NCBI RefSeq assembly: GCF_000022145.1
Contig: NC_011891.1
Location: forward strand, 372,001 to 436,000
Direction: 5' to 3'
Source: Anaeromyxobacter dehalogenans 2CP-1
GTDB taxonomy: Bacteria; Myxococcota; Myxococcia; Myxococcales; Anaeromyxobacteraceae
DNA: 64,000 nt
A program made the translations under genes and the position numbers. This document shows, piece by piece, positions 21,946-39,188 of this stretch (position 1 is the stretch's first letter; the number at the start of each line of letters is the position of its first letter). The notes below the pieces were generated by a model, which saw only the letters and a list, made by a program, of their open reading frames with translations, did not search any database and was not told where the DNA came from.

Positions 21946-23571
21946 TCAGGGCGCCGGCTCGCCGTACTCCTTCAGCTTCCGGTACAGCGTGGCGAGCCCG
22001 ATGTGGAGCCCCGCGGCGGTCGCCACCTTGTTGCCCCCGGCGGTGCGCAGCGCCGCGAGCACGTGCTCGCGCTCCACCTCGTGCAGCGGCCGGATCACGC
22101 CGGGTCGCGCCGGGGCGGGGGGCGCGTGGCGCAGCGCCTCCGGCAGATCGTCGACGCCCACCTGGTTCCCGGCGGACAGCGCCACCGCGTACTCCACCGC
22201 GTTCTGCAGCTCCCGCACGTTGCCGGGCCACGGATAGCGCACCAGCAGGTCCGCCACCTGCGCCGTGAACCCGGTGACCGGCCGGTGCGCGCTGCGGGAC
22301 AGCTTCGCGAGGAAACAGCGCGCCAGCGGGACCACGTCGTCCGGCCGATCGCGCAGCGGCGGCACGCGCAGCTCGATGACGTTGAGCCGGTAGAAGAGGT
22401 CCTGGCGGAAGCGGCCGGACGCCACCTCGACGGCGAGGTCACGGTTCGTCGCCGCGACGATCCGCACGTCCACCTTGCGCGAGCGGCTGTCTCCCACGGG
22501 GCGGACCTCGCGCTCCTGGAGCGCGCGCAGGAGCTTCACCTGCATCGCGGGCGAGACCTCGCCCACCTCGTCCAGGAACAGCGTGCCGCCGTCGGCGGCC
22601 TCGAACAGGCCCACCGCGTCCGTCTCGGCGCCGGTGAACGCCCCCTTCACGTGGCCGAACAGCTCGCGCTCGAGCAGCGTCTCCGGGATCGCGCCGCAGT
22701 TCACGGCCACGAACGGCCCGCCGGCGCGCTCCGAGGAGCGGTGGACGAGGCGCGCCACCTCCTCCTTCCCCACGCCGCTCTCGCCCGTCACCACCACCGA
22801 CGAGCCGGTGCGCGCCACGCTGCGCGCGCGCTCCAGCACCCGGCGCATCGCCTCGCTGCGCGCGACCAGGCCGGTGTCCTGGTCGGAGCAGGTCGCGAGC
22901 CGCTCCAGCTCCGCCTGGCGCTCGCGCAGGCGACGCTCGGTGCGCCGCAGCTTGCTCGACACCTCCTGCAGCGCGTGATCGATCGACTCCATGTGGTAGT
23001 AGGGCAGGTGGCGCTCCAGCTCCGGGCCCCAGCGCTCCTTGAAGCGCGCGGCGATGTGGCACTCGGAGTCGCCCTTGCCGACGCAGCGGTCCTCGATGAC
23101 GTAGACCTCGCGCCGCTCCTTGTACGAGAGGTAGCCGCTCGCGAAGGCGGCCGAGGTCCAGCACACCGGCTCGTCGGAGAGCCCGATGTGCAGCAGGTGC
23201 TGCTCGGCCTCGTAGGAGCGGTGCCACACCGTCTCGACCAGCGGCGCGTCGCCGAGGCCGTCGGTGCGGACGTTCTCCCCGAGGATGAACTGGCCCTTCA
23301 GCGGCGGCAGGAACGGGCCGGCCTTCCCCTCCTTCCAGAGGTCCGGGTGCTCGTGCTCGAGCGCCTCGCCCACGCGCCACCCGTGGGCGTAGCCGAACCG
23401 CGTCAGGACGCCGCGGGCCGCGAACGTCCCGAACGCGTTCGTGAGCTCCTTGCGCAGCAGGCCGAGGGCCACCGCGTCGAACAGCACCACGCGCTGGCCC
23501 ATGAAGCGGATCACCCCGCCCCTGGGATCGAACGAGAGGATCTCCCTCAGGTCGAGGTCCTCGATGCGCAT
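21946..23571 (-). CDS. XylR/DmpR-type sigma-54-dependent activator with V4R sensor
   Basis: A 541-residue regulator. Residues 1-100 are the XylR N-terminal domain ([26 protein letters not shown]) and residues ~135-195 the V4R ligand/metal-binding domain ([28 protein letters not shown]). The AAA+ domain has Walker [10 protein letters not shown], the sigma-54 contact loop GAFTGA and Walker [12 protein letters not shown], and a Fis-type helix-turn-helix is at the C-terminus ([18 protein letters not shown]). In this family aromatic effectors release autoinhibition. Tandem TTCTCGAAACG-type boxes lie just upstream and again near the divergent porin promoter, suggesting autoregulation and porin control. 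Confidence 0.9.
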
Positions 23572-23854: not shown

Positions 23855-23870
23855 TGGCACGTCGGGTGCT
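23855..23870 (+). promoter_or_regulatory. candidate sigma-54 promoter for the porin gene at 24057
   Basis: TGGCACGTCGGGTGCT matches the -24/-12 consensus (TGGCACG-N4-TTGCW) at nearly all positions, with GG and GC 10 bp apart. It implies a leader of about 175 nt before the porin start codon. Confidence 0.6.
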
Positions 23871-25720: not shown

Positions 25721-25780
25721 GCGCAGCGCCGCGCACCTCGATATCCGCGCGCAATTGCAGCGCGCCGCGGGCGCAGCACG

Positions 25781-25796
25781 TGGCACGGGCCATGTA
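25781..25796 (+). promoter_or_regulatory. candidate sigma-54 promoter of the rdh operon
   Basis: TGGCACGGGCCATGTA has a perfect -24 half (TGGCACG) and a weaker -12 half (ATGTA for TTGCA). It lies 61 bp after the paired palindromes. Transcription would start close to the ATG at 25809, so the first transcript has almost no leader. Confidence 0.5.
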
Positions 25797-25808
25797 ACCC
25801 GGACGGGC

Positions 25809-26300
25809 ATGTCGCCCGGTCCCGAGCCCCGAAGCCGCGCCTCGCGCGCCCTGGAGTGGATCTTCGCCGCCCTGCTGCTGGGGGCGTCGTCGGCCATCCT
25901 GATCGCAGCGGCGGTGAGCCGGGCGGACACGCACTATGCGTGGATCCGGCCCGCGGGCGATCCCGCGCGCGGCGACGTCACGGCGGCGCAGGTTCGCGAG
26001 CGCCTGCACGAGGTGCTCGATCCCGAGCTCGGGATCGACGTCGTCGATCTCGGGCTCGTCTACGAGATCGCCGAGCCGAGGGAGGGGAAGGTGGCCCTGG
26101 TGATGACGCTCACCGTCCCCGGCTGCCCGTTCGCGAAGCAGCTCGTCGAGGACGTCCGTCGGGCGCTCTTCGCGCACCCCGGCGTGAAGGAGGTGTCGCT
26201 CACCGTGACGCTGGATCCTCCCTGGAGCTGGGAGCGGGTCGCGCCGGAGGTCCGCAAGCGGATGATCGAGCACGGCGCCGGGGCGGAGGAGCGGTCATGA
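25809..26300 (+). CDS. membrane-anchored MIP18/DUF59-family protein
   Basis: A 163-residue protein with an unusual layout: residues ~15-40 form one membrane helix (ALEWIFAALLLGASSAILIAAAV), and the rest is a MIP18/PaaD/SufT-like domain (VREVLDPELGIDVVDLGLVYEI; MTLTVPGCPFAKQLVEDVRRAL, including the conserved Pro-Gly-Cys). Soluble members assist Fe-S cluster delivery or assembly. Being first in the reductive dehalogenase operon suggests a role in cofactor loading at the membrane. The start is uncertain because the predicted transcript begins only a few bases upstream. It overlaps the next gene by ATGA. Confidence 0.7.
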   Translation: MSPGPEPRSRASRALEWIFAALLLGASSAILIAAAVSRADTHYAWIRPAGDPARGDVTAAQVRERLHEVLDPELGIDVVDLGLVYEIAEPREGKVALVMTLTVPGCPFAKQLVEDVRRALFAHPGVKEVSLTVTLDPPWSWERVAPEVRKRMIEHGAGAEERS

Positions 26301-26926
26301 CGCTCCTCGGGCCGCTCTCCAGCGGCTTCCTGCTCGGCCTGGGAACCGGACCGCTCTGCTTCATCGGCTGCATCCCGCTGGCGCTGCCCTTCGCGCTGCC
26401 CGGCCCGGACGCAGGGCCAGGGTCGCGCCGCGGCGGATGGGGGTTCCTGCTGAAGTTCCTGGCCGGCCGGCTGGTCGCCTACTCGACCGTGGGCGTGCTC
26501 ACCGGCCTCGCGTCGTCCCTGGCTGGCCCGCTGCGCCGCTGGGTGACGCCGGTGTGGCTCGCGCTCAGCCTGGTGCTGATCCTCCACGGGCTCGGGCGCG
26601 GCCTCGGGCACCGCGGGCTCTGCGGCGCGACCACGCGCCTGGTGCGGTCGCGCGCGTTCCCGTTCCTGCTCGGCCTCGCCGCGGCGCTCTCGGTCTGTCC
26701 GCCGTTCCTGCTCGCGGTCGCCTACGCGATGGATCGCTCGGGCCAGGTGCTCGGCGGCGTCGCCTTCTTCCTCGCCTTCTTCGTCGCCACCACCCTGTAC
26801 GTCCTGCCCATCGCGATGCTCGGGTACCTGCCGCGGCGCGAGCTCTGGCAGCGCGTGGGCCGCGTCGCGTCCGTCATCGCCGGCGCCGCGCTCCTCGCGC
26901 AGGGGCTGAGGGAGCTCCTGGCGTAG
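26297..26926 (+). CDS. DsbD/CcdA-like (sulfite exporter TauE/SafE-type) membrane protein
   Basis: A 209-residue protein of about six membrane helices. Cysteines occur in the first helix (GTGPLCFIGCIPLALPF) and again in LSVCPPFLLAVAYAMD, the pattern of DsbD-type transporters that carry reducing equivalents from cytoplasmic thioredoxin to periplasmic acceptors. It starts at an ATG overlapping the previous stop and precedes the first RdhA gene by 140 bp. A periplasmic thioredoxin (40377) under a similar promoter could be its partner. Confidence 0.7.
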   Translation: MTLLGPLSSGFLLGLGTGPLCFIGCIPLALPFALPGPDAGPGSRRGGWGFLLKFLAGRLVAYSTVGVLTGLASSLAGPLRRWVTPVWLALSLVLILHGLGRGLGHRGLCGATTRLVRSRAFPFLLGLAAALSVCPPFLLAVAYAMDRSGQVLGGVAFFLAFFVATTLYVLPIAMLGYLPRRELWQRVGRVASVIAGAALLAQGLRELLA

Positions 26927-27066
26927 ATGCCTGGCGCAGGAGCCCGGGCCTCCGCGTCAGCGAGGTGAATGCCCCGGAATGCAGCACGGACATCCGACCG
27001 AAGCAGGAGATGGACAGCACCCATGACCAACCAACACGGACAGGAATCGACCCGAGGGCACGCGCC

Positions 27067-28989
27067 ATGACCAAGACGGACCGTTACGTCCTCTGGGGCA
27101 TCGGCGCGGTGTGGGCCCTCGACCTCGCCACCTTCATCCTCACGGACTTCCACATCTACGCGTTCCTGGCGCTCTTCGTGATCGCCGCGCTCGGGTTCGC
27201 CTGGTGGGGACTCCGCTTCCAGGTGACGGAGCCGATGCGCCGCAACGCGGCGCTCGGGGTGACCGGCTTCTGGACGGTGGCGATGGCGCTGCTCTTCGCG
27301 CCCTGGCCCATCCCCGACAAGCCGGAGTACATCGTCGGCGAGGTCCACCGGTTCAGCGAGATGGAGCACGGCTTCTCGCGCGTGCTCACCGGCGTCACCG
27401 GCCCGAACATCGCGGCGGGCGGCCTGGTGTACGGCGACCCCGCCGACCAGCAGAGCATGATGACGGAGTGGGGCTGGCCGCCGAACTTCATCAGCGGCTA
27501 CCCGCTCGCCCGGGCGCTGTTCGGCGGCACCATCCTCATGGAGCGGCTCCGCGGCGCCACCACCATCGGCGGCGAGCCGGCGAACCCGCTCCGCTACAGC
27601 TGGAGCAACTTCCAGGGCGAGAAGCGCGACAAGAAGCTCGGCTGGAACAAGGGAGACCTGCTCCTCGGCGAGGTGGCCAAGGCGATGGGCTCGGCGAAGG
27701 CGACCTACACGCCGCACGAGAACACGCTCATGGTGAAGTCGATCGCGTCGTGGCTCGGCTCACCGCGCATCGCCATCGCGGCCGTCGATCCCCGCTGGTT
27801 CTACTCGCACGACCTCAGCACGTACGGCACGCCGCTGCCGCTGAAGGACGCGAAGGACCTGAAGTACGTCATCCAGATCTTCACCGACCAGGACTGGACC
27901 CGCATCCACAACGACGCCGGGACCTCCTGGTGGTCGGTGTCGAACAGCGGCCAGGCGTACTCGACGAGCGCGTGGATCGGCATCCGCATGGCGCAGATGC
28001 TCCGTGACATGGGCTACGTGGCCCGCGTCGGGTTCGGCGGGATGAACTACGAGAACATCGAGACGCCGGCCTCGGTGTACAGCGGCATCGGCGAGTACGG
28101 CCGGCTCTCCGACGCGGTGGTGCCGACGGCGGGCGGCCTGCGCTTCAAGTCCGCCACCATCTTCACCGACTTCCCGCTGGAGGCGGGCGATCCGAAGCAG
28201 GGCTGGGGCATCACCCGCATGTGCGCGAACTGCGATCGCTGCGCTCGCGCCTGTCCCGTGAACTCCGTGCCGATGGGGGAGCCCACCGTCGAGAACGGCG
28301 TGAAGATCTGGCAGGTCGACAAGGACAAGTGCACGCGCTTCCGCACCGGCAACCTGAACGGCAACATGTGCGGCGCCTGCCTGGCGGTCTGCCCGTACAA
28401 CAAGCCGGACACCGCGTTCCACCGGGTGGGCAACTACATCATCCGGCACAGCCCGATCGCGACGTACCTGTTCGGCAACATCCACGGCGTCGGCCTCGAG
28501 GACTGGCTCGACTTCGAGTACAGCTCCGAGGCCAGCCCGTACAACGTGAGCCGCCCGGCCCGCTGGATCCAGGAGGATCCCGGCTGGAAGGCCACGTTCC
28601 CCTACCAGGTGGGCCAGTACATCTACACCGAGCGTGACCGCTCCAAGAACGAGGAGTGGGCGTCCGGCGTGGACCCGAAGATGGGGAAGGTCGGGCTCAG
28701 CTACAAGGGCACGACCTGGGGAAAGATCCCGGACCGCCTGCTGGACGCCAGCGGCCGCAACCGCAACGTCCACTGGGACTACGAGGCCGGCGAGCTCCCG
28801 CCGAACCTGCCGCTCCCCGGCAAGCTGCTCACGCCGGAGGAGGCCACCGCGCTGCTGAAGGAAGGCAAGGCGTTCTCCGGCGCGTCCTACTCGCCGGACG
28901 ACGAGGTCTTCCCTCCGCGCGATCCCAAGTACGAGAAGCAGACGCTCACCTACGAGCAGGCGGCCCGCATGTGGGCGGAGGAGAAGTGA
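27067..28989 (+). CDS. rdhA: reductive dehalogenase catalytic subunit, membrane-anchored (first of two)
   Basis: A 640-residue corrinoid/Fe-S reductive dehalogenase that would use organohalides as electron acceptors. Two ferredoxin motifs are near residues 386-442: C386xxC389xxC392xxxC396P and C422-x12-C435xxC438xxxC442P. The upstream half contains the corrinoid domain block (HNDAGTSWWSVSNSGQAYSTSAWIGIRMAQMLRDMGYVARVG). Unusually there is no twin-arginine signal; three membrane helices (residues ~8-82) replace it, with the positive loop between helices 2 and 3 predicting a periplasmic catalytic domain. The ATG at 27067 follows GAGGG; an in-frame ATG at 27010 is too close to its AGGAG. Confidence 0.9.
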   Translation: MTKTDRYVLWGIGAVWALDLATFILTDFHIYAFLALFVIAALGFAWWGLRFQVTEPMRRNAALGVTGFWTVAMALLFAPWPIPDKPEYIVGEVHRFSEMEHGFSRVLTGVTGPNIAAGGLVYGDPADQQSMMTEWGWPPNFISGYPLARALFGGTILMERLRGATTIGGEPANPLRYSWSNFQGEKRDKKLGWNKGDLLLGEVAKAMGSAKATYTPHENTLMVKSIASWLGSPRIAIAAVDPRWFYSHDLSTYGTPLPLKDAKDLKYVIQIFTDQDWTRIHNDAGTSWWSVSNSGQAYSTSAWIGIRMAQMLRDMGYVARVGFGGMNYENIETPASVYSGIGEYGRLSDAVVPTAGGLRFKSATIFTDFPLEAGDPKQGWGITRMCANCDRCARACPVNSVPMGEPTVENGVKIWQVDKDKCTRFRTGNLNGNMCGACLAVCPYNKPDTAFHRVGNYIIRHSPIATYLFGNIHGVGLEDWLDFEYSSEASPYNVSRPARWIQEDPGWKATFPYQVGQYIYTERDRSKNEEWASGVDPKMGKVGLSYKGTTWGKIPDRLLDASGRNRNVHWDYEAGELPPNLPLPGKLLTPEEATALLKEGKAFSGASYSPDDEVFPPRDPKYEKQTLTYEQAARMWAEEK

Positions 28990-28990
28990 C

Positions 28991-29248
28991 ATGACCCGGC
29001 TCAAGCGTCTGAAGCTCAGCATCGCGCTGGAGTGGTACGAGATCCTCCTCATCGGCGTCACGGCGGGCCTGCTCGCGTTCGGCCTGTGGGCGCTCGTGGA
29101 CACGCTCCTCATCTCGTCTCCCGTGGCGGCGTGGCGCTTCCTCGCCCTGTTCGTCGTCTGGTCGTTGCCGGGCATCGCGATCCTCGCGTTCGTGCGCCCC
29201 CGGCCTCCGGCGGCCCCGCCCGCTCCACGGCAGCAGGTCACCCCGTAG
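28991..29248 (+). CDS. small two-helix membrane protein (possible RdhB-like partner)
   Basis: An 85-residue protein with two membrane helices (IALEWYEILLIGVTAGLLAFGLWALV and AAWRFLALFVVWSLPGIAILAFV) and a Pro-rich tail. It starts 2 bp after the rdhA stop. Canonical RdhB anchors are small three-helix proteins encoded right after rdhA, so position and size argue for an anchoring or electron-transfer partner, although no RdhB sequence signature was recognised and RdhA here already has its own helices. Confidence 0.6.
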   Translation: MTRLKRLKLSIALEWYEILLIGVTAGLLAFGLWALVDTLLISSPVAAWRFLALFVVWSLPGIAILAFVRPRPPAAPPAPRQQVTP

Positions 29249-29307
29249 GTCCCCGGTCCCCGGGGCGGGGCGCTGGCCCCGCCCCCGGGGGCGGATGGGA
29301 GCATCGC

Positions 29308-30762
29308 GTGCGCTGGAAGGCTCGAGAGCTGGGGTGCATGGCGCTCCTCGCCGTGGGGACGGCCGCGTGGACGGCCATGACCTCGGCCGCGCTGGTGGAG
29401 CGCGAGTGGCGCGCCACCTGGATCTCGCTCGCGACGGCGCTCGGCTGCGCCGCGCTGGGCGCGGGGTTGCTGCTGGCGAAGCGCCGCGGCGCGCTGGAAG
29501 GCTCGCGCGCCCGGTGGACGCTGCGCGGCGTCCTGGGGCTCGCGGCGCTGCTCGCGCTCGCGCTGGTGATCCCGTCCGACCGGAGCTTCCCCGACAAGCG
29601 GGTCGGCGCGGCGACACCGACGCAGGCCTACGACGCGACCACCCAGCCCGGCAACGACGTCCTCGGCAAGGTGGAGCGGAGCCGTGGCCCCGACGGCCGT
29701 GACGAGCTCACCTTCTCCGTGTACGACGTGTGCGTGGGGAAGGTCGCCCACCGCGCGGCGCGCGACGGCTCGGTGGCGCCGGTCGCGGTCGAGGTGACCG
29801 AGCCCGCCGTGCTGGCGGCGCAGATCAAGGACGAGGCGCGGGCGCTCGGGGCGCAGGTGGCAGGGATCACCGAGCTCCACCCGCAGTTCGTGTTCCAGAA
29901 GGACAACGACGGCCAGCCGGTCGCGCTCCACCACCGGTACGCCATCGTGATCGCGACCGGCCTGGATTACCGGCTGGCCAGCCCGTCCGCGCCGCTGCCC
30001 TGGCGCGACTACTACAGCTCCATCCCGGAGGAGGTCGCGGCGGTGCTCTCCGGGCGCAGCACGAACCCCGCGGTCCCCATCCCTCCCGAGACCGTCCAGG
30101 AGTACCGCGACACCCTCGAGTTCTACGCCGAGGGCGGACGCGTCGCGGTGGAGCTCGCGAAGGCCATTCGCAGCCTGGGGTATCCGGCCCGGGCCCACTT
30201 CGGCCGGTGGGCGGAGGTGCAGGTGATCCCGCTCGCGATCGCCGCGGGCCTCGGCGAGCTCGGCAAGAACGGCATGCTCATCAACGACCGGTTCGGGCCG
30301 CGCGGGAGCTTCGCGGTGGTGACGACCGACATCCCGCTCGCCGTGGACCGGCAGCGCGACCTGGGGGTGCAGGAGTTCTGCCGCGTCTGCAACAAGTGCG
30401 CGGACGCCTGCCCGGTGAGCGCGGTGCCGCGCGGGGAGGCGGGCGCGCCGGCCGGCGGCGTCTCGCGCTGGCAGGTGGACGGCCCGAAGTGCTGGACCTA
30501 TCTCAAGATCAACCCGAAGTGCATGGCGTGCACCGGCGCGTGCCCGTTCAACAAGAAGGATCTGCTCGCGCACCGCTGGGCGGTGGCGCTCATCGCGCGC
30601 AAGTCCGTCGCCGCCAATCGCCTGCTCGTGTGGCTCGACGACCTGCTCGGCTACGGCCGGTCCGCGTTCCGGCTCCGCGACGAGGCGCGCAACGCGCTGG
30701 GGGCGCCCGGCGAGGCGCCGCGGCCGGCGGGTGCGTTCCCGGGGCCGGAGGCGCGGTCGTGA
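29308..30762 (+). CDS. rdhA: reductive dehalogenase catalytic subunit, membrane-anchored (second of two)
   Basis: A 484-residue paralogue of the RdhA at 27067. Three N-terminal helices (about residues 9-88) again replace a Tat signal. The corrinoid domain (QEYRDTLEFYAEGGRVAVELAKAIRSLGYPARAHFG...GLGELGKNGMLINDRFGPRGSFAVVTTDIPL) and two Fe-S motifs follow: C358xxC361xxC364xxxC368P and C395-x9-C405xxC408xxxC412P. GELGxxGxLIxxxFGPRxR is the best-known RdhA/QueG-like block. The GTG at 29308 has GGGAG six bases upstream. It overlaps the next gene by GTGA. Confidence 0.88.
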   Translation: MRWKARELGCMALLAVGTAAWTAMTSAALVEREWRATWISLATALGCAALGAGLLLAKRRGALEGSRARWTLRGVLGLAALLALALVIPSDRSFPDKRVGAATPTQAYDATTQPGNDVLGKVERSRGPDGRDELTFSVYDVCVGKVAHRAARDGSVAPVAVEVTEPAVLAAQIKDEARALGAQVAGITELHPQFVFQKDNDGQPVALHHRYAIVIATGLDYRLASPSAPLPWRDYYSSIPEEVAAVLSGRSTNPAVPIPPETVQEYRDTLEFYAEGGRVAVELAKAIRSLGYPARAHFGRWAEVQVIPLAIAAGLGELGKNGMLINDRFGPRGSFAVVTTDIPLAVDRQRDLGVQEFCRVCNKCADACPVSAVPRGEAGAPAGGVSRWQVDGPKCWTYLKINPKCMACTGACPFNKKDLLAHRWAVALIARKSVAANRLLVWLDDLLGYGRSAFRLRDEARNALGAPGEAPRPAGAFPGPEARS

Positions 30763-30926
30763 GGTCGCCCGGTCCGAGCAGGCCGGTGAAGGAGTGGCTC
30801 GCGCTGATGGCGGCGGGGCTGCTCGTGGGTGCGCTGTTCAACGCCGCGTTCCAGGCCGCGCCCTGGAGCTCGGGCGGCCTGCTCGGCGGCGTCGTCGCCG
30901 CCGCACTGCTGAGGCTCCTGTCATGA
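30759..30926 (+). CDS. small membrane protein in the rdh operon
   Basis: A 55-residue protein with two short hydrophobic segments (EWLALMAAGLLVGALFNAAF and GGLLGGVVAAALLRLL). Its GTG overlaps the stop of the second rdhA and its stop overlaps the next ATG, so translation is coupled on both sides. This coupling is the main evidence that it is real. It may be a second, shortened anchor protein. Confidence 0.55.
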   Translation: MRSPGPSRPVKEWLALMAAGLLVGALFNAAFQAAPWSSGGLLGGVVAAALLRLLS

Positions 30927-31090
30927 TCGAGATCGTCACCACCCTGCTGCTCGCGGTGGGGGTCTATGCGCTGCTGCGCCGCCCCGGCGCCGGCTGCGAC
31001 GCTGGCTGCGACGGCGGCCGTGGCGGCTGCGAGGGTGAGCCGGTGGCGCTGGTCCAGCTCGGCCGGCCGCGCGGGAGGGCCCGCCGATGA
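30923..31090 (+). CDS. small membrane protein with cysteine-rich tail
   Basis: A 55-residue protein with one membrane helix (MIEIVTTLLLAVGVYALL) followed by RRPGAGCDAGCDGGRGGCEG, three cysteines spaced C-x3-C-x6-C. The arginines after the helix suggest a cytoplasmic tail that could bind a metal or pass electrons. Coupled by ATGA overlaps to both neighbours. Confidence 0.55.
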   Translation: MIEIVTTLLLAVGVYALLRRPGAGCDAGCDGGRGGCEGEPVALVQLGRPRGRARR

Positions 31091-32540
31091 CCTGGGCCGG
31101 CCCCGCGGCGCTGGGCCTCTTCGTGGGCGGGGTGATCGCCTCGCTGCGCGGGTGGATCCCGCAGCGCGTGGTCACCCTCCAGGCGCTGCTGCTCGCGGTC
31201 GCGGGGCTGGCGATCGGGTTCTCGGCGCTCGCGGGGCGGCCCATCCCGTGGCCCCAGCTCCTCGCCTCGGCGAACGTGCATCCGGTGCCAGCGTCATCGC
31301 CGGCTTCCTGCTCGCCGGCGCGTTGCACGCCGCGGGCGCGTTCGACGCCGCGGCGCGCCTGCTCGGGCGGCTGACGCGCACCCGGCTCGGCGCGCCGTTC
31401 GTGATCTCGCTCCTGGTGAACCTCCCCACGATCCTGGCCATGCCGTGCGGCCGCATCCTGGTCTCGCCGCTCATCCCCCTCGCGCTGATGCTGGGCTGGG
31501 CGCTCGCCAAGGAGCGCGGCGAGCCGGTCCTGGTGGCCGTCACCGTCTTCGGGCTGGTGGTGAACGCGGCCGCCTCCTGCGGCCCCTCCGTGATCGGCGG
31601 GATCGGGATGCTGGGCGAGGGGATGGGGCGGTATCCGCCGGGCTCGTTCTCCAACCCGGCGCAGATCGCGATCCTGGTGATCACCGTCGCCACCATGGCG
31701 CTGATCCGGTGGGGCTACGGGACGACCCTCAGGATGCGCGCCGCGCCGCCCGAGGCCGCCGAGCGCCCGGTGCCCGAGCACGGATACCTGGCGCTCGCGA
31801 TCTTCCTGGCCGTGCTGCTCGTGGTGGTGCTCGTGCGCCCGCCGGTCCCGCTGCAGGTGACCCTCACGATCGGCACGGCGTGCGTCATGCTGGTCGCGCG
31901 GCTCGGCCTGGACGATCTGCTGGGCGGCGTGATGCTCCACCCGCTCTCGGCGATGCTGGCGGGGTTCCTGGTGGCGGGCGCGCTCTCGATCGCGGGCGCG
32001 TTCGACGCGCTGCTGGCGCTGCTGGTGTGGGCCGCCGAGCACACCCCGCTCGGCTACGTGGGCGTGAGCGTGGTGCTGGCCTACGTGCCGGTGATGCTGG
32101 CGATGCCGTGCGGTCGCATCGTGTCGCTGGCGCTCATCCCCGGGGTGCTCATGTTCGGCGTGCGCCTCGCCGACGCGACCGGGCTCGAGCGCGCCACGCC
32201 GGCGCTGCTCTCCGCCTTCATCCTCGCCGGCGCGGCGTCGTGCGGCCCCTCCGCCATCGGCGGCATCGGGAGCATCGGCGAGGGGCGGCTGCGCATCCGC
32301 GACGCGTGGTCCGGCCGGCCGCAGACGCTCGGGATCTTCCTGGGCGTCCCGGTCACGGCGCTGCTCGTCTCCCGCCTGCCGCTCACCTCGACGGCCCTCG
32401 ATCCGCGCTACTTCCCGGCGGCGCTCGTCCTCGGGGCGGTGGCGGGGGGCGTGGTGAACCTCGTCTACGGCTACCGGGTGCACCACCTCGGCGGCCTGCT
32501 CGGCGGCCTGCTCACCGGCGCGCTCCTGGTGCTCCTGTGA
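31087..32540 (+). pseudogene. two-fold repeated polytopic membrane protein, split by a one-base frameshift
   Basis: The frame opened by the ATG at 31087 (overlapping the upstream stop) runs to about 31282 and then continues in another frame to 32540. Adding one C at the CC of 31282-31283 would restore H-P-G-A-S-V-I and a protein of about 484 residues. The two halves repeat each other: GFLLAGALHAAGAFDA / GFLVAGALSIAGAFDA, LAMPCGRI twice, and SCGPSxIGGIGxxGEG twice. The architecture resembles two-repeat ion transporters, but I do not recognise the family. The intact downstream operon suggests a recent mutation or a sequencing error. Confidence 0.7.
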
Positions 32541-33028
32541 AGCGCGCGCTCGTCACCGTGAACGCGATCGCGGTCGGCGCCACGCTCGCGTACCTGGGCT
32601 GGTTGCTCGCGGACGCGCTGCGCGCACGGCAGCCGTGGGCGATCACCTGCTACGACTGCAAGGCGTGCACGGCGCGCTGCGTGCTCGGGCTGGACCCGCA
32701 GGGCTTCGTCTCGGCGGCGCTGGCCGGGAGCGGCGACGTGTACGTGTACGCGACGAACGTGCGCCTCCCGGTGCGGAGGGCGCTCGAGATCGATCCGGAG
32801 ATGCTGGTCACCGTGGCGGATCGCCACCTCACCGCGCGGGAGGCGGCCGCCGCGCTGGGGCCGGACGCGGAGCTGGTCACCTTCAAGATGCGGGCGCGCG
32901 ACGCGGCGCGCGTCTGCTTCCGTTGCGGCGCCTGCGAGAAGGGGTGCGGGCTGCGGCTGCCGCTGCTGCGGCTGATCGCGCAGCTCCGCGGCGACGCCGG
33001 GAACGAGTGGGCGGCCCATGCTCCGTAG
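32537..33028 (+). CDS. membrane-anchored double [4Fe-4S] protein
   Basis: A 163-residue protein with one N-terminal helix (ALVTVNAIAVGATLAYLGWLLADAL) and two four-cysteine sets, CYDCKACTARC and CFRCGACEKGC, each CxxCxxCxxxC as in bacterial ferredoxins and HdrC-like proteins. It should carry electrons at the membrane, plausibly from the quinone pool or a dehydrogenase towards the dehalogenases. The GTG overlaps the previous stop and its end overlaps the next gene by 11 bp. Confidence 0.75.
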   Translation: MKRALVTVNAIAVGATLAYLGWLLADALRARQPWAITCYDCKACTARCVLGLDPQGFVSAALAGSGDVYVYATNVRLPVRRALEIDPEMLVTVADRHLTAREAAAALGPDAELVTFKMRARDAARVCFRCGACEKGCGLRLPLLRLIAQLRGDAGNEWAAHAP

Positions 33029-33647
33029 CCCTGCGTTCCTCGCCACCCTGACGTTCCTGGCCGTCGCGCTCGGCGCGCGCGTGGCGCAGGCGCCGTGGAC
33101 GGAGCAGTTCCCGGGCTCCTACCCGCGGGTGCACGCGCCTGCCGACGCGCGGTTCGAGTTCCTGCCGGACGAGATCCGCATCCACCTCGACGAGGAGACC
33201 AAGAGCGGCCGCATCATCGTGTTCGCACACGCCGCCGACGGCAGCCTGCTCGGCCTGCTCAAGCCCATCGTCGATGGGGCCGTCACGGTGCGACGAGGGG
33301 ATCTCGCCGACTACCGCCTGGCGGTCCGGGGCCGTGAGGTGGGCGAGCACCGGCTGCTGAAGGCGATGGACCGCTACGTCGAGCGCGAGGACATGCTCGA
33401 GCGGATCCTGGACGCGCGTGCCAAGGGGCTGCGCTTCGGCGTCCAGCGCTGCCTCTACCCCATCTGCAACCGCTGCCTGGATGGCTGCAAGAGCGTCATG
33501 CGCGGCGACTTCCCCATCTCGATGCGCGTCGGTGAGCGCGGGAACGTGGAGCCGGTGTTCGCGAAGGGGAGCTGCCCGCGCTGCGGCAAGTGCTTCGTCT
33601 GGTGCCCGTCCGGAGTGATCCGCGACAGCGGGTCCCTCACCAACTAG
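33018..33647 (+). CDS. membrane-anchored Fe-S protein with two four-cysteine clusters
   Basis: A 209-residue protein with an N-terminal signal/anchor helix (AFLATLTFLAVALGARVAQA), a 110-residue domain without recognised similarity, then CLYPICNRCLDGC (C-x4-C-x2-C-x3-C) and CPRCGKCFVWCP (CxxCxxCxxxCP). The longer first spacing differs from a standard ferredoxin, so cluster type there is uncertain. It is the second of three consecutive Fe-S proteins in the rdh operon and overlaps the first. Confidence 0.72.
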   Translation: MLRSPAFLATLTFLAVALGARVAQAPWTEQFPGSYPRVHAPADARFEFLPDEIRIHLDEETKSGRIIVFAHAADGSLLGLLKPIVDGAVTVRRGDLADYRLAVRGREVGEHRLLKAMDRYVEREDMLERILDARAKGLRFGVQRCLYPICNRCLDGCKSVMRGDFPISMRVGERGNVEPVFAKGSCPRCGKCFVWCPSGVIRDSGSLTN

Positions 33648-33655
33648 GAGTCGCG

Positions 33656-34021
33656 GTGTTCGAGGCGATGGAGATCGCGGTGGTGCTGCTCCCAGTCGTG
33701 CTGGTCGCCGGGATGGTGGTCCGGCTGGTGGCGCGCGGGCACACGCAGGTGCTGCTCTGCATGGAGTGCGAGCTGTGCATGGGCGCTTGTCCGCTGTGCG
33801 TGAAGCGGGGCGAGGCGTTCCCCGGTCCGAAGGGCATCCTCGCGGCGGCGAAGACGGGCAAGGTGGACGCGGCCATCGCCGCCGGCGCGCTCGACTGCAC
33901 CTCCTGCGGCGCCTGCACGCACGTGTGCCCGCGTGGCCTCGCGCCGCAGCGGGAGGTCGAGCGCTGGCGCGCCGAGGCCGAGCGGGTGGCCTCGCGCCAC
34001 GCCGCGGAGGATCCCGCATGA
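33656..34021 (+). CDS. membrane-anchored double [4Fe-4S] ferredoxin-like protein
   Basis: A 121-residue protein with one N-terminal membrane helix (AMEIAVVLLPVVLVAGMVVRLVA) and two motifs, CMECELCMGACP and CTSCGACTHVCP, separated by about 40 residues as in HdrC/GlpC-type dicluster proteins. The GTG at 33656 follows AGGAG by five bases; an ATG at 33668 is poorly spaced. It overlaps the TonB receptor gene by ATGA, tying electron transfer and uptake genes to one transcript. Confidence 0.75.
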   Translation: MFEAMEIAVVLLPVVLVAGMVVRLVARGHTQVLLCMECELCMGACPLCVKRGEAFPGPKGILAAAKTGKVDAAIAAGALDCTSCGACTHVCPRGLAPQREVERWRAEAERVASRHAAEDPA

Positions 34022-35967
34022 GCGCGTCGGCGCGGTTGGCCGCCCGGACGGCGATCGCGCTCGCGTGCGCGACGTGCCCGGCGCTGGCGGCCGGCGCGGC
34101 GCCGGGACCGGATCCGGACGACCCGGTGGTGGTGCTGGAGGAGCAGGTGGTCCGCCTGCCGCGCGCAACGACGGAGGCGCGGCCGCTGGCGTCCGGCACG
34201 GTGGTGGACCGCGCGACCTTCGAGGGCGAGGCGAAGGACGTCGGCCAGCTCGTCTCCACCGCGCCCGGGATCGCCGTGGAGGAGCACGGCGGCCTGGGCC
34301 AGCTCACCACGATCTCCATCCGCGGCTCCCCGCCGAGCGGCGTCAAGGTGCTGCTGGATGGCTTGCCGCTGAACACCGCGTTCGGCGGCGGCGTGGACCT
34401 CTCCACCATCCCGCGCTCCTGGGTGGACGCGGTGGAGGTGGTGCGAGGGCCGGAGGGAGCGCGCTACGGCTCGGGCGCGCTCGGCGGCGTGCTGAACGTG
34501 GTCACGCGCCGACCCGAGGCGGGGAGCTGGAGCCTCGAGACCGGCGGCGGCTCCTTCGACACGGCGCGGGTCGCGGCCGACGTCGGCACCTCGGTCGGGC
34601 CAGGCGCGGTGTTGCTGGGCGCCACCGCCGAGACCACCAGCGGTCGGTTCCCGTTCCGGCTCGATCCGGGTCTACCGGGTGGTCCCACGGTGCGGGCGAC
34701 GCGAGAGAACGCCGGCGTGCGGCGCGGAGGCCTGCTCGCGAAGCTGATCCGGCCGCAGGAGCACGGCCGGCTCGACGCGCTCCTGGAGGTGTCCGGCGGG
34801 CACCGCGGCCTCCCCGGCTTCGCCGCGGCGCCGACCCCGTGGGCCTGGCAGGACGACGCGCGGCTGCTCGCGATGGGGCGGGTCGCGCGTTTCGGTGCGC
34901 TCGGCCCGGCCACCCTCGCGGCCCGCGGCCACCTGCGGCTCGACCGGCTGGATGCGCGCCTCACCGGCCCCGACGACTCGCCGATCCGTCAGCGCGGCGC
35001 GGCGGCCGGGCTGGCGCTGGAGGCGACCGGGTCGCATCGGCACGGCGTCCTCAGCGCCTCGCTCGAGACCACTGCCGAGCTCCTCGCCGCAGACGGGCTG
35101 GGGGGCCGCCGCGACCTCTATGGCGTGGCGGCGGCGGTCGCCGACGACCTCAGCCTCGCCGGCGGCGGTCTCCGCATCGCCCCCGCCGCGCGAGCGGAGC
35201 GGGCCGGGCAGTTCGGCGGCGTCTCCGGCTCGCTCGGCCTGTCGGTTCGGCTCGCCCCCGCCCTGCGCGCCCGCGCGGGCGTGGGCCGCACCTTCCGGCC
35301 GCCCGGCCTCGCGGAGCTGCACCTGCAGCAGGGGCTCCTGGTCCCGAACCCGGACCTCCGGCCCGAGACCGCCGTCGCGGCCGACGCGGGGTGGGTGGCG
35401 GACGGCCGCGCGGGGCTGCTCGCGGTCACCGGGCACCTCACCCGCTACGAGGACCTGGTCGTGTACGAGCCGAGCGATGCGTTCGGTCGGCTGAAGCCCT
35501 TCAACTCCGGGCGCGCGTCGGCCACCGGCCTCGAGGTCGAGGGCGCGTCCGCGCCGGTCGGCGGTCCGCTCCGCGCGAGCGCCCGCGGCAGCTACACCCT
35601 GCTCGTCACCGAGCTGCTGCGCGGCGCGCCCGCGGAGGTGGGGCACTGGATCCCCTACCGCCCGAGGCAGCGCGCCTTCCTGCGCGTCGCGCTCGCCCCC
35701 GGGCCGCTGTCGGCGCACGTGGAGCTCCACCGCCTCGGCCGTCGCTACCGGGATCGCCGCGGCGTGAACCCGATTCCCTCCTCGACGAGCTGGAACGCCG
35801 GCCTCGGCGTGCGCGTGGCGCGCCGCCCCGGCGTCCGGATCCACCTCGAGGTCCTCAACCTCGCCGACGATCGGACGCTCACCGACGGCGTCGGCGATCC
35901 GCTCCCGCCGCGGACCGTGATGGTCACGCTGCGCGCCGGGTCCTCTGCCCAGGAGTACGCACCATGA
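34018..35967 (+). CDS. TonB-dependent outer-membrane receptor, probable corrinoid uptake
   Basis: A 649-residue BtuB/CirA-type receptor. After the signal peptide, the plug domain is clear (VGQLVSTAPGIAVEEHGGLGQLTTISIRGSPPSGVKVLLDGLPLN...IPRSWVDAVEVVRGPEGARYGSGALGGVLNVVTRRP), followed by beta-barrel strands including FRPPGLAELHLQQGLLVPNPDLRPETA. TonB would power import of a large ligand. Location in a reductive dehalogenase operon suggests a cobamide as ligand, because RdhA needs one; this is inference. No cobalamin riboswitch was recognised. Coupled by ATGA overlaps to both neighbours. Confidence 0.82.
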   Translation: MSASARLAARTAIALACATCPALAAGAAPGPDPDDPVVVLEEQVVRLPRATTEARPLASGTVVDRATFEGEAKDVGQLVSTAPGIAVEEHGGLGQLTTISIRGSPPSGVKVLLDGLPLNTAFGGGVDLSTIPRSWVDAVEVVRGPEGARYGSGALGGVLNVVTRRPEAGSWSLETGGGSFDTARVAADVGTSVGPGAVLLGATAETTSGRFPFRLDPGLPGGPTVRATRENAGVRRGGLLAKLIRPQEHGRLDALLEVSGGHRGLPGFAAAPTPWAWQDDARLLAMGRVARFGALGPATLAARGHLRLDRLDARLTGPDDSPIRQRGAAAGLALEATGSHRHGVLSASLETTAELLAADGLGGRRDLYGVAAAVADDLSLAGGGLRIAPAARAERAGQFGGVSGSLGLSVRLAPALRARAGVGRTFRPPGLAELHLQQGLLVPNPDLRPETAVAADAGWVADGRAGLLAVTGHLTRYEDLVVYEPSDAFGRLKPFNSGRASATGLEVEGASAPVGGPLRASARGSYTLLVTELLRGAPAEVGHWIPYRPRQRAFLRVALAPGPLSAHVELHRLGRRYRDRRGVNPIPSSTSWNAGLGVRVARRPGVRIHLEVLNLADDRTLTDGVGDPLPPRTVMVTLRAGSSAQEYAP

Positions 35968-37451
35968 GACCGACGTTCCTCGCCACGCTCGCCGCCGCCG
36001 CGCTCCTCGCGTGCAGCGCACGGAGCTCCTGTCCCGAGGGGCAGGTCGACTGCGGGGGGCGCTGCGTCGCGCTCTCCGCCGACCCGCTCAACTGCGGCGC
36101 CTGCGGCACGGTGTGCGGCGCGGGCGGAGCCTGCCGCGCGGGCGCGTGCGACTGCGGCCCGGGGACGGTCCGCTGCGGCGAGACCTGCGCGCAGCTCGAG
36201 AGCGACCCGGCGAACTGCGGCGCCTGCGGGAAGACCTGCCCCGGCGCGCAGGTGTGCGGCACCGCCGGCGGCGCGATCGCCTGCGCGGACGCCTGCGGGG
36301 CGGGGTTGACGGCGTGCGACCGCGCCTGCGTGGACCTGGCCTCGGACCGCTACCACTGCGGCGCCTGCGGCGTGCCGTGCGAGCCGGGGGAGGCCTGCGA
36401 CGGCGGCACCTGCCGCTCGCTCCAGGTCGCCTGCTTCGCGACCGATGACGTCCGCCCGCTCGCGCCCGATCTCGCCGGCACCGGGTCGCCACGACCCGCG
36501 GGCGACGGCCCGGTCGCGCTGGCCGGACTCGACGGGGACGTCTGGGCCGCCGCCGCGCTGTCCGGGAGCCTGGTGCGGCTGCCGCTCGAGCTCGCCGCAC
36601 CGTCGGTCGAGCACGCGCTGCATGCCGCCGACCTGGAGGGGATCGCCGCCGTGGGCGATCGGCTGCTGGTCTCGAACTCCGGGGGCGGCTCCGTCGCGGT
36701 GGTGGAGCCCGGGACCGGGCGCGTGCTGGACGACGTGATCCTGCCGGGGCCGCCCGGCGCCAACCCGCGGGGCATCGCGGTCCTGGATGGGCGTGCGTAC
36801 GTGGCGCTGTACGGGAAGGACGAGGCGAGCGGGGGCCAGGCGGTCGCGGTGCTCGACGTCTCAGGCGTTCCGGGGTGCGCCGGCGCGCCGTGCGCCACGC
36901 TGGAGCGCACGATCGATCTGCGCGGCGCGGCCGATGCGGGCGCCCTGCCGTTTCCGGCGCACGCGGTGGCGCTGGGCGCGAACGTCTACGTCACGCTCGC
37001 GAACCTGGCGAAGGACTCGGACCCGACGAGCTGGACCTACGGGTACTACGTGACGCCGGCGGGTCCGGGTCGCCTCGTGACGATCGACGGTGCGAGCGGC
37101 GCGTCTCGCGTGCTCTCGCTGGGCGATGGCTGCAAGAACCCAGGCGCGCTCGCCGCACACGGATCCACCCTCTGGATCTCGTGCGCCGGCGCGGGCGCCG
37201 CCGGGCTGCTGCCGGTGGACCTCTCGAACCCCGCCGCGCCGGAGGTCGGAGGCCTGCTCCTCACCGCGTTCGACGCGCCCGGCGCCGTGGCCTTCTGCCG
37301 CGGCGCGGGCTTCGTGAGCGATCAGTATACAGGGAGGGTGCAGCGCTTCGACCCTGTGACCCGGAACGCGCAGGAGGCGGTGGAGGTCTGTCCGATGGGC
37401 GCACAGGGATGGGCGTGGGCCGCCGATCTCCTGTGCGCGCCGGGACGCTGA
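35964..37451 (+). CDS. surface lipoprotein: Cys-rich repeats plus beta-propeller
   Basis: A 495-residue protein with a lipobox (AAAALLAC). Residues ~20-150 contain three NCGACG-centred cysteine repeats (DPLNCGACGTVC, DPANCGACGKTC, DRYHCGACGVPC) of a type common in myxobacterial surface proteins. The remaining 340 residues have YncE-like beta-propeller blades (GDVWAAAALSGSLVRLPL, DRLLVSNSGGGSVAVVEPGTGRV, GRAYVALYGKDEASGG). It overlaps the TonB receptor gene by ATGA. This pairing recalls the BtuB-BtuG corrinoid-capture pair of Bacteroides, in which BtuG is a propeller lipoprotein; no homology is claimed. Confidence 0.72.
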   Translation: MRPTFLATLAAAALLACSARSSCPEGQVDCGGRCVALSADPLNCGACGTVCGAGGACRAGACDCGPGTVRCGETCAQLESDPANCGACGKTCPGAQVCGTAGGAIACADACGAGLTACDRACVDLASDRYHCGACGVPCEPGEACDGGTCRSLQVACFATDDVRPLAPDLAGTGSPRPAGDGPVALAGLDGDVWAAAALSGSLVRLPLELAAPSVEHALHAADLEGIAAVGDRLLVSNSGGGSVAVVEPGTGRVLDDVILPGPPGANPRGIAVLDGRAYVALYGKDEASGGQAVAVLDVSGVPGCAGAPCATLERTIDLRGAADAGALPFPAHAVALGANVYVTLANLAKDSDPTSWTYGYYVTPAGPGRLVTIDGASGASRVLSLGDGCKNPGALAAHGSTLWISCAGAGAAGLLPVDLSNPAAPEVGGLLLTAFDAPGAVAFCRGAGFVSDQYTGRVQRFDPVTRNAQEAVEVCPMGAQGWAWAADLLCAPGR

Positions 37452-37523
37452 CCTGTCGCCACCCGGGCCTCGAGGTGCACGGCGGCGCCTGGAGCGAAGC
37501 ATCGATCCACCGGAAGGCGAACC

Positions 37524-39188
37524 ATGAAGCTCCACGACATTCACCTGCTGGACCTCTTCGACGTGGGCACCGAGCAGGGCTGGCTCAGCATGCGCCAGCA
37601 GCGCATGGTGGTGCACAGCGCGGCGGCGGTCAGCATCATGCGGGCGCAGCTGATCCGCAGCCTGGGCCAGGACGCGGCGCGGGCCATCGTGTTTCGCTGG
37701 GGCTTCGCCCAGGGGTACTTCGACGCGATGATGTGCTCCGACCACCTGGCGAGCTTGCAGCCGGTGGACCGATTCGTGTTCGGCTGCACGCTCCACACCA
37801 TGGAAGGCATGGTCCGGGTGGCGCCCAAGGTCATCGAGGCGAAGGGGCCCGGCAAGCTGCACATGGAGGCGAACTGGTGGCACTGCGCCGAGGCCGACGA
37901 CCACGCCCGCGTGTTCGGAGCTGGCATGACGAGCTCGTGCTGGGCCACCCTGGGCTACGCCTCCGGGTTCGGCACGTACGTGATCGGGGCGCTCATCCTG
38001 TTCGAGGAGGTCGCGTGTCGCTGCTCCGGCGCGCAGTGCTGCTCGGTGGTGGGCAACGATCTGGACGGCTGGGGTGATCGCGCCGCGGAGATCGAGGCGC
38101 GCTACACGCTCGCGGGCGAGACCTCGTTCTCGCAGCAGTGGAAGGAGATCCACGCGGAGTGCGAGCACGCCCGCGCCATCGGGACGGCTGCGGCGAGCGC
38201 CAAGTCCGCGCCCACCGCCACCGTGACCACGGTGAACGGCCCCGACCGCACCACCGCACCGCTCAACTTCGTGGTGTGCAGCCAGGCCATGACGGACCTG
38301 CTGGTCCTCGCGGAGCGGGTCGCGCCGCTCGAGATGAACGTGCTCATCGAGGGCGAGAGCGGGACCGGCAAGGAGTTCCTGGCCCGGTTCATCCACGAGA
38401 AGAGCATGCGCGGCGACGCGCCGATGGTCGCCATCAACTGCGCCGCGCTCACCGAGGGGCTGCTCGAGTCGGAGCTGTTCGGCCACGCTCGAGGCGCGTT
38501 CACCGGCGCGGTGCGCGACAAGCCGGGGCTGTTCGAGCACGCCGGCCGAGGCACGATCCTCCTCGACGAGATCGGCGAGATGCCGCTGTGCCTCCAGGCG
38601 AAGCTGCTGCGCGCGCTGGAGAGCCGCGAGTTCCGGCGCGTCGGCAGCGAGAAGGTGCTGCGGCTGGACGCGCGGGTGGTCGCCTCCACGAACCGGGACC
38701 TCCGGCAGCAGGTGCAGACGGGCGCATTCCGCGAGGACCTGTTCTACCGGCTGGGCGGGTTCGTGCTCACCATCCCGCCGCTCCGGGAGCGGCGGGAGGA
38801 GATCCCCGCGCTGGCGCACTACTTCCTGCACTCCACCGCACGGCGCTGGAACAAGGGCGTGCAGACCATCAGCCCGGGCGCGATGCGGTGCCTGATGAGC
38901 TACTCCTGGCCCGGGAACGTCCGGGAGCTGCAGCACGCCATCGAGCGCGCCACGGTCGTCGCTTCCCAGTCGGTGCTCACGGTGAAGGACCTGAACCCCG
39001 AGGTCGCCGGGCGCCTCGGAGACCCCGCGCCCGACGGCGATCTGGACGTCGAGGCGAACGAGCGGCAGCTCATCGAGGAGGCGCTCCGCCGCTACCACGG
39101 CAACCGGAAGGAGGCCGCGGCCGCGCTGCGCATCAGCCCGGTCACGCTCTGGCGCCGCGTGCGCAAGTACGGGCTCTCGCTCAGCTGA
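37524..39188 (+). CDS. XylR/DmpR-type sigma-54-dependent activator of the rdh island
   Basis: A 554-residue activator with an XylR-type N-terminal domain (DIHLLDLFDVGTEQGWLSMRQQRMVVHSAAA), a V4R domain with clustered cysteines (EEVACRCSGAQCCSVVG), an AAA+ domain (Walker A GESGTGKEF, GAFTGA loop, GTILLDEIGEMP) and a C-terminal Fis helix-turn-helix (AAALRISPVTLWRRVRKYG). Effectors of this class are usually phenols or other aromatics, which bind the N-terminal domain. It follows the last rdh operon gene by 72 bp. It is the best candidate to bind the paired CGYTTC-N5-GAARCG palindromes at 25684, 40280 and 40968. Confidence 0.88.
   Translation: MKLHDIHLLDLFDVGTEQGWLSMRQQRMVVHSAAAVSIMRAQLIRSLGQDAARAIVFRWGFAQGYFDAMMCSDHLASLQPVDRFVFGCTLHTMEGMVRVAPKVIEAKGPGKLHMEANWWHCAEADDHARVFGAGMTSSCWATLGYASGFGTYVIGALILFEEVACRCSGAQCCSVVGNDLDGWGDRAAEIEARYTLAGETSFSQQWKEIHAECEHARAIGTAAASAKSAPTATVTTVNGPDRTTAPLNFVVCSQAMTDLLVLAERVAPLEMNVLIEGESGTGKEFLARFIHEKSMRGDAPMVAINCAALTEGLLESELFGHARGAFTGAVRDKPGLFEHAGRGTILLDEIGEMPLCLQAKLLRALESREFRRVGSEKVLRLDARVVASTNRDLRQQVQTGAFREDLFYRLGGFVLTIPPLRERREEIPALAHYFLHSTARRWNKGVQTISPGAMRCLMSYSWPGNVRELQHAIERATVVASQSVLTVKDLNPEVAGRLGDPAPDGDLDVEANERQLIEEALRRYHGNRKEAAAALRISPVTLWRRVRKYGLSLS

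Follow-up and report, generated by a model that had tools for sequence, protein, structure and literature searches.

We analyzed a 64,000-nucleotide stretch of the Anaeromyxobacter dehalogenans 2CP-1 genome (NC_011891.1, positions 372,001 to 436,000; hereafter the window), which carries two reductive dehalogenase homologues, RdhA1 and RdhA2, with membrane helices in place of a twin-arginine translocation (Tat) signal. The genome around the window is complete, a single contig of 5,029,329 bases, and all analyses were computational and based on sequence. Our results showed that basic residues flank the helices of both proteins in a pattern opposite to that of other helix-bearing RdhAs, which suggests that the two catalytic domains face outwards. 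We infer that RdhA1 would be an outward ortho-halophenol dehalogenase and RdhA2 its quinol-side partner, bearing a Glu-X-Glu (EXE) motif, and that the pair, with exported domains, would be a chlorophenol-respiratory enzyme; we give this reading an even chance of being correct.

RdhA1 (27067..28989, 640 aa; window coordinates, + strand unless noted) and RdhA2 (29308..30762, 484 aa, GTG start) both matched TIGR02486 (2.5e-39 and 1e-37, respectively), in each case under the curated cut-off. In a sequence search of the PDB, NpRdhA was nearest to both proteins (4ras, 8.5e-39 for RdhA1) and PceA came next. Both 4Fe-4S motifs of RdhAs are present in each: CANCDRCARACP (28222..28257) and CGACLAVCP (28369..28395) in RdhA1, and CRVCNKCADACP (30379..30414) and CMACTGACP (30520..30546) in RdhA2. 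A genome search with PF13486 was uninformative, giving no match here or in any control genome; with TIGR02486 scores under the cut-off and no PF13486 match, automatic annotation may miss both genes. A comparison genome, which we take to be that of A. dehalogenans 2CP-C, has two RdhAs and shares the conserved cluster that spans 25755 to 39188. The orthologues are 89% (RdhA1) and 82% (RdhA2) identical and were assigned, by order and description, to Adeh_0329 and Adeh_0331.

Helices were located with a biological-hydrophobicity (membrane-insertion energy) scan, whose coefficients were checked only on a Leu/Ala series, where three to four Leu in 19 Ala gave about 0 kcal/mol. The scan found three N-terminal helices in each protein. 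Those of RdhA1 span residues 6-25 (27082..27141, insertion energy +0.2), 30-51 (27154..27219, −3.7), and 61-82 (27247..27312, weakly hydrophobic); those of RdhA2 span residues 8-30 (29329..29397), 34-56 (29407..29475), and 68-90 (29509..29577). No Tat signal (RRxFxK) was present at the N-terminus of RdhA1, RdhA2, or the 2CP-C orthologues. Helices 2 and 3 are joined by a loop rich in Arg in both genes of both strains. The original prediction had described three hydrophobic helices, the lack of a twin-arginine signal, and this Arg-rich loop, and all three observations held.

We considered, and rejected, the possibility that either gene begins farther upstream at an overlooked start followed by a Tat signal. 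For RdhA1, the in-frame upstream sequence has no RR followed by a hydrophobic stretch, and divergence from 2CP-C begins just upstream of the Met. For RdhA2 none was found; the only nearby ATG encodes Met11, a position taken by Val in the 2CP-C orthologue, and VRWKAREL is kept in both strains, which supports the GTG start. AlphaFold models of the two proteins, made from four-row alignments, had a mean predicted local distance difference test score of 44.7 and 38.7 and were too poor to use.

Orientation was assessed against a set of 28 further RdhAs that carry three helices at the N-terminus (hereafter hybrids). The set covers Myxococcota, with three sequences from other genomes of that phylum, and no fewer than four additional phylum-level groups. 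Lys and Arg were counted on each membrane side, that is, the N-terminal tail plus loop 2 against loop 1 plus the segment after helix 3, in four ways, and the counts were read by the positive-inside rule. One hybrid was dropped for an unreliable helix call. In all 27 scorable hybrids, the side of loop 1 and the post-helix-3 segment was richer in Lys and Arg, which places the catalytic domain in the cytoplasm by this rule; across the four counting ways, 25 to 27 of the 27 kept this sign. RdhA1 and RdhA2 of both strains, in contrast, had a basic excess of 3 to 5 on the side of the N-terminal tail and loop 2, opposite to the hybrids in every counting way. As a control, six canonical RdhBs scored with the EXE loop outside, in the same direction as RdhA1 and RdhA2, and the cryo-electron microscopy structure of PceA2B2 has this loop on the outer side, next to the quinol site (8q4h, PMC10624902). 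The original prediction had placed the N-terminus inside and the catalytic domain outside; the basic-residue pattern agrees with it, and the outside placement of the domain is what we infer from that pattern.

Among typical helix-bearing RdhAs (L019-L021, L029, L030, L032, L033, L048-L068, L073) the cytoplasmic-domain charge pattern was uniform. This disagrees with the TMHMM table of a 2019 survey, in which cytoplasmic and exoplasmic C-termini are mixed (PMC6797604).

The uniformity of the hybrids also speaks for an alternative in which the catalytic domains of RdhA1 and RdhA2 are cytoplasmic, as in other helix-bearing RdhAs by charge, and are served by the quinol pool or by soluble donors on the inner side, which would make export needless. 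Neither protein has a canonical Tat signal, their catalytic domains are nearer in sequence to the cytoplasmic NpRdhA than to the exported PceA, and a small Fe-S protein of the cluster (33641) carries positive charges beyond its helix, which suggests an inner-facing cluster. The charge pattern of the two proteins themselves points outward in both strains, however, and we regard cytoplasmic domains as doubtful.

Loop 1 of RdhA2 contains an EXE motif (Glu31-Arg-Glu33 in VEREWRA, 29398..29406), and loop 1 of RdhA1 has none. The original prediction of an anchor fused to the enzyme thus fits RdhA2, with its RdhB-type loop, and does not fit RdhA1 in this respect. The string EREWRA is common to RdhA2 and two typical hybrids, L019 (KEREWRA) and L054 (LEREWRA), and because of this the helix module of RdhA2 likely shares ancestry with those of typical hybrids.

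The shared string can also be read as a sign that all hybrids face outward, the functional Lys and Arg of the EXE loop misleading the positive-inside rule and the Arg-rich loop of RdhA2 revealing the true orientation. The outer position of the EXE loop in PceAB would agree with this, and joining RdhA2 to the hybrid clade cost only 0.14 log units (approximately unbiased [AU] test, p 0.476). In typical hybrids, however, the segment after helix 3 is basic too, and the N-terminal tail and loop 2 contain few basic residues; the EXE loops of canonical RdhBs also contain few. A common outward orientation seems quite improbable.

The tree was built from catalytic domains only (59 rows). The 28 hybrids formed one group (80/96), and RdhA1 and RdhA2 stood outside it on separate long branches, RdhA1 beside the NpRdhA/BhbA-like enzymes (94/78). 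Joining RdhA1 to the hybrids was not rejected (AU p 0.119), nor was joining RdhA1 and RdhA2 together. This phylogeny of fused RdhAs, which had been proposed as a check of the original prediction, separates the two proteins from the hybrids in the best tree without rejecting their union. Independent origin of the helices of RdhA1 and RdhA2 is no more than suggested by the best tree (AU p 0.088 to 0.476). In the search for relatives, a plasmid search with RdhA1 returned NpRdhA-like matches, and only two relatives turned up in a single-sequence contig scan with RdhA2; several of the phyla searched were tiny samples.

RdhA1 keeps all four residues that bind phenol and donate the proton in NpRdhA. 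By alignment, Ser294 corresponds to Ser422 of NpRdhA, Tyr298 (27958..27960) to the proton donor Tyr426 (Tyr246 in PceA), Lys361 (28147..28149) to Lys488, and Arg426 (28342..28344) to Arg552. In NpRdhA, three of the four (Ser422, Tyr426, Lys488, Arg552) bind the hydroxyl that the substrate carries ortho to the halogen; activity is severely compromised in K488Q and R552L (PMC7565698).

RdhA2 has Thr, Ser, Leu, and Tyr at the NpRdhA Ser, Lys, Arg, and Tyr positions. It keeps the catalytic Tyr (Tyr273), which was found in every RdhA compared and is absent from QueG. At the Arg305/Lys488 position, Ser334 in GPRGS (30307..30309) replaces the Lys or Arg of other RdhAs, and the Ser is present in both strains. 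All the others compared have Lys or Arg there (32 of the hybrid clade, nine Tat-type, three NpRdhA-like, two alphaproteobacterial, and the two RdhA1 sequences, with Lys). Because of this Ser, RdhA2 may be weakly active, act on another substrate, or serve as an electron relay. Its C-terminal His and Tyr align with the menaquinone-site region. The stretch at 30259-30450 reads GKNGMLI...GSF and is slightly QueG-like.

The complete 2CP-1 genome encodes no further RdhA; the next-ranked match in the genome search was QueG. A sigma-54 activator of the MopR/DmpR type (37524..39188) stands at the end of the cluster; its best family was the phenol regulator MobR, below the cut-off of that family. Its His and Trp align with those of the phenol pocket of DmpR, and its Cys/Glu/Cys/Cys set also aligns with DmpR. 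The cluster also encodes a TonB-dependent receptor (34018..35967), to which the vitamin B12 receptor family TIGR01779 came nearest (2e-40, under its cut-off). Both 2-chlorophenol and 2,6-dichlorophenol are dechlorinated at the ortho position by A. dehalogenans 2CP-C (PMC3975901). Because there is no third RdhA, and given the active-site match, the regulator, the receptor, and this activity together, RdhA1 is the best candidate for the ortho-chlorophenol activity. Among nine Anaeromyxobacter species genomes, seven lacked both RdhAs, one of the seven being only 66% complete.

An outer domain with corrinoid and Fe-S clusters would have to be exported folded. The only precedent found for export of a folded cofactor domain was the dual Sec-Tat membrane proteins (PMC5449189), in which the last helix is handed over from Sec to Tat; that paper contains no mention of the word dehalogenase. 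TatC is encoded in the genome. In both strains RdhA1 has an RR pair before the last helix and after an even number of helices (Arg58-Arg59, 27238..27243; MRRNAAL, and LRRNAAL in 2CP-C), directly before a helix 3 of marginal insertion energy (+0.27; +0.18 in 2CP-C). In RdhA2 the pair comes right after helix 2 (Arg59-Arg60, 29482..29487; KRRGALEG, and RRRGALDG in 2CP-C), and an RR before helix 3 was found only in 2CP-C. The distance from helix 2 to RR, about 8 residues or more in dual Sec-Tat proteins, is 6-8 in RdhA1, which at best borders on that length, and 2 in RdhA2 (first RR), which falls short of it. The route thus has only partial support in RdhA1 and poor support in RdhA2, and we consider a Sec-Tat hand-over less likely than not. 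The RR of loop 2-3 was rejected as a family-wide Tat signal, being found there in none of the 28 other hybrids.

Export would need no such hand-over if the domain reached the outside by ordinary Sec export and acquired its corrinoid and its Fe-S clusters once in the periplasm. The helices of both proteins can be inserted by Sec, and the cluster encodes a DsbD-like protein as well as the TonB receptor of B12 type. No case in which such a domain gains Fe-S clusters in the periplasm is known to us, however, and established exported RdhAs go through Tat, so we consider this alternative very unlikely.

Under our preferred reading, the first two helices would insert RdhA1 and RdhA2 so that the N-terminus lies inside and the catalytic domain outside. 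The outer domain would cross the membrane with its cofactors in place, and by the most plausible known route Sec would pass helix 3 on to Tat, as happens in actinobacterial Rieske proteins. RdhA1 would be the catalytic dehalogenase, with Ser, Lys, and Arg holding the phenolic OH and Tyr donating the proton. RdhA2, lacking the basic catalytic residue, would serve mainly as an electron relay on the quinol side or would have another substrate, and the two together would form the chlorophenol-respiratory enzyme of this Anaeromyxobacter.

Several points weigh against this reading. It is drawn from sequence, so that expression, activity, and topology are all predicted, and the counting of basic residues follows a rule that has exceptions. 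RdhA1 has no EXE motif and few positive charges after helix 3, where dual Sec-Tat proteins have them; RdhA2 has three basic residues there. Helix 3 of RdhA2 (insertion energy −1.7; −1.0 in 2CP-C) exceeds the hydrophobicity that the Sec-release rule allows. RR occurs in two of seven other basic membrane loops of the window, in which the basic residues are 26 Arg to 1 Lys; with Arg so dominant among the basic residues, the RR pair speaks only weakly for Tat. The identity of the comparison strain as 2CP-C is presumptive. Finally, the gene of a polytopic 10-helix membrane protein in the cluster (31087..32540; the 2CP-C copy matches CitMHS weakly) lacks one base near 31286 relative to the intact 2CP-C copy and is thereby frameshifted. 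The frameshift is either a true mutation or a sequencing error.

Two small proteins follow the RdhAs and are real genes conserved in 2CP-C: an 85-aa protein with two helices in the rdhB position (28991..29248, 83% identical over the aligned part) and a small hydrophobic protein of about 55 aa (30759..30926, 81% over the aligned part). The EXE motif of RdhB is absent from both; it was found in five of the six canonical RdhBs examined, and the sixth has the related EEG. A search of the PDB with PceB gave no match.

Farther downstream, 32537-34021 encodes three consecutive small membrane-anchored 4Fe-4S proteins that are kept in 2CP-C and are possible electron carriers: a one-helix protein with two 4Fe-4S motifs (32537..33028), a 4Fe-4S protein with a signal or anchor (33018..33647), and a second one-helix protein with two motifs (33641..34021). 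Just upstream of RdhA1, 25755-26926 encodes a PaaD/SufT-like Fe-S assembly protein and the DsbD-like membrane protein. A second sigma-54 activator with XylR_N and V4R domains lies on the − strand (21946..23571), and its pocket His is not conserved; two XylR/DmpR-type activators thus bracket the region, and only the 37524 copy has the phenol-pocket His. No cobalamin riboswitch was found near the cluster. A candidate sigma-54 promoter site with one mismatch lies at 23855, and the window had three matches against 0.62 expected; the candidate was set aside because the similar site in 2CP-C lies on the other strand.

The architecture itself is not new. The fused helices without Tat of the original prediction are indeed there. 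The 2CP-C orthologues Adeh_0329 and Adeh_0331, however, were described in 2008 with non-Tat signals and internal helices (PMC2330069), and RdhAs with three N-terminal helices were described as a class by Jochum in 2018 (PMC6129605) and Atashgahi in 2019 (PMC6797604), who left open their function and the export of an outer C-terminus without Tat. In the passages available of the 2008 paper, the cluster has the same two non-Tat helix-bearing RdhAs, small B-like genes, and a multi-helix gene, and those passages contain no analysis of topology direction or active-site residues; the 10-helix gene has lost one base in 2CP-1 relative to the 2CP-C cluster. The Anaeromyxobacter proteins are absent from the 2019 table (PMC6797604). 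The opposite charge orientation, the division of labor proposed for the two proteins, and the predicted action on halophenols would be new. The original prediction included neither the contrast in charge with the hybrids of other genomes nor the difference between the two active sites.

Like RdhA1 and RdhA2, the hybrids have three N-terminal helices, no Tat signal, and no separate EXE-type rdhB, and RdhA2 shares their EXE loop. The two proteins differ from them in the opposite basic-residue pattern and in lying outside the hybrid clade in the best tree, although joining them to it was not rejected, and RdhA1 in being longer and without EXE. Canonical respiratory RdhAs have a Tat signal and an adjacent EXE rdhB; RdhA1 and RdhA2 lack both and keep the 4Fe-4S motifs and the Tyr. 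NpRdhA and BhbA resemble RdhA1 in the active-site Ser, Tyr, Lys, and Arg, in being the nearest PDB sequence, and in the tree (94/78), whereas RdhA1 has no fused reductase or 2Fe-2S domain (Pfam: 4Fe-4S only), has membrane helices, and belongs to a respiratory organism. PceA2B2, a menaquinol:organohalide oxidoreductase (8q4h, PMC10624902), shares with the proteins here two 4Fe-4S motifs, the catalytic Tyr, and a C-terminal His and Tyr, and with RdhA2 the EXE loop; it has a separate PceB and a Tat signal, whereas the RdhAs here are fused and Tat-less. The dual Sec-Tat proteins (Rieske, polyferredoxin; PMC5449189) resemble RdhA1 in the even helix number before an Arg-rich loop and the last helix, the folded cofactor domain, and the weak helix 3, and the two RdhAs follow their loop-length, charge, and hydrophobicity rules only in part.

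The function of hybrid RdhAs and the membrane side on which they act were listed as open in the 2019 survey (PMC6797604). Helix-bearing RdhAs might have two orientations, most of them cytoplasmic and the Anaeromyxobacter pair flipped outwards, with a catalytic RdhA1, a degenerate quinol-oxidizing RdhA2, and Sec-to-Tat export without an N-terminal Tat signal; taken as a whole, we consider this picture unlikely. A. dehalogenans, a cultured organism that respires ortho-chlorophenols and has no RdhAs other than these two, offers a test bed for these questions. If RdhA1 is the enzyme, NpRdhA-type ortho-halophenol chemistry would be tied to respiration.

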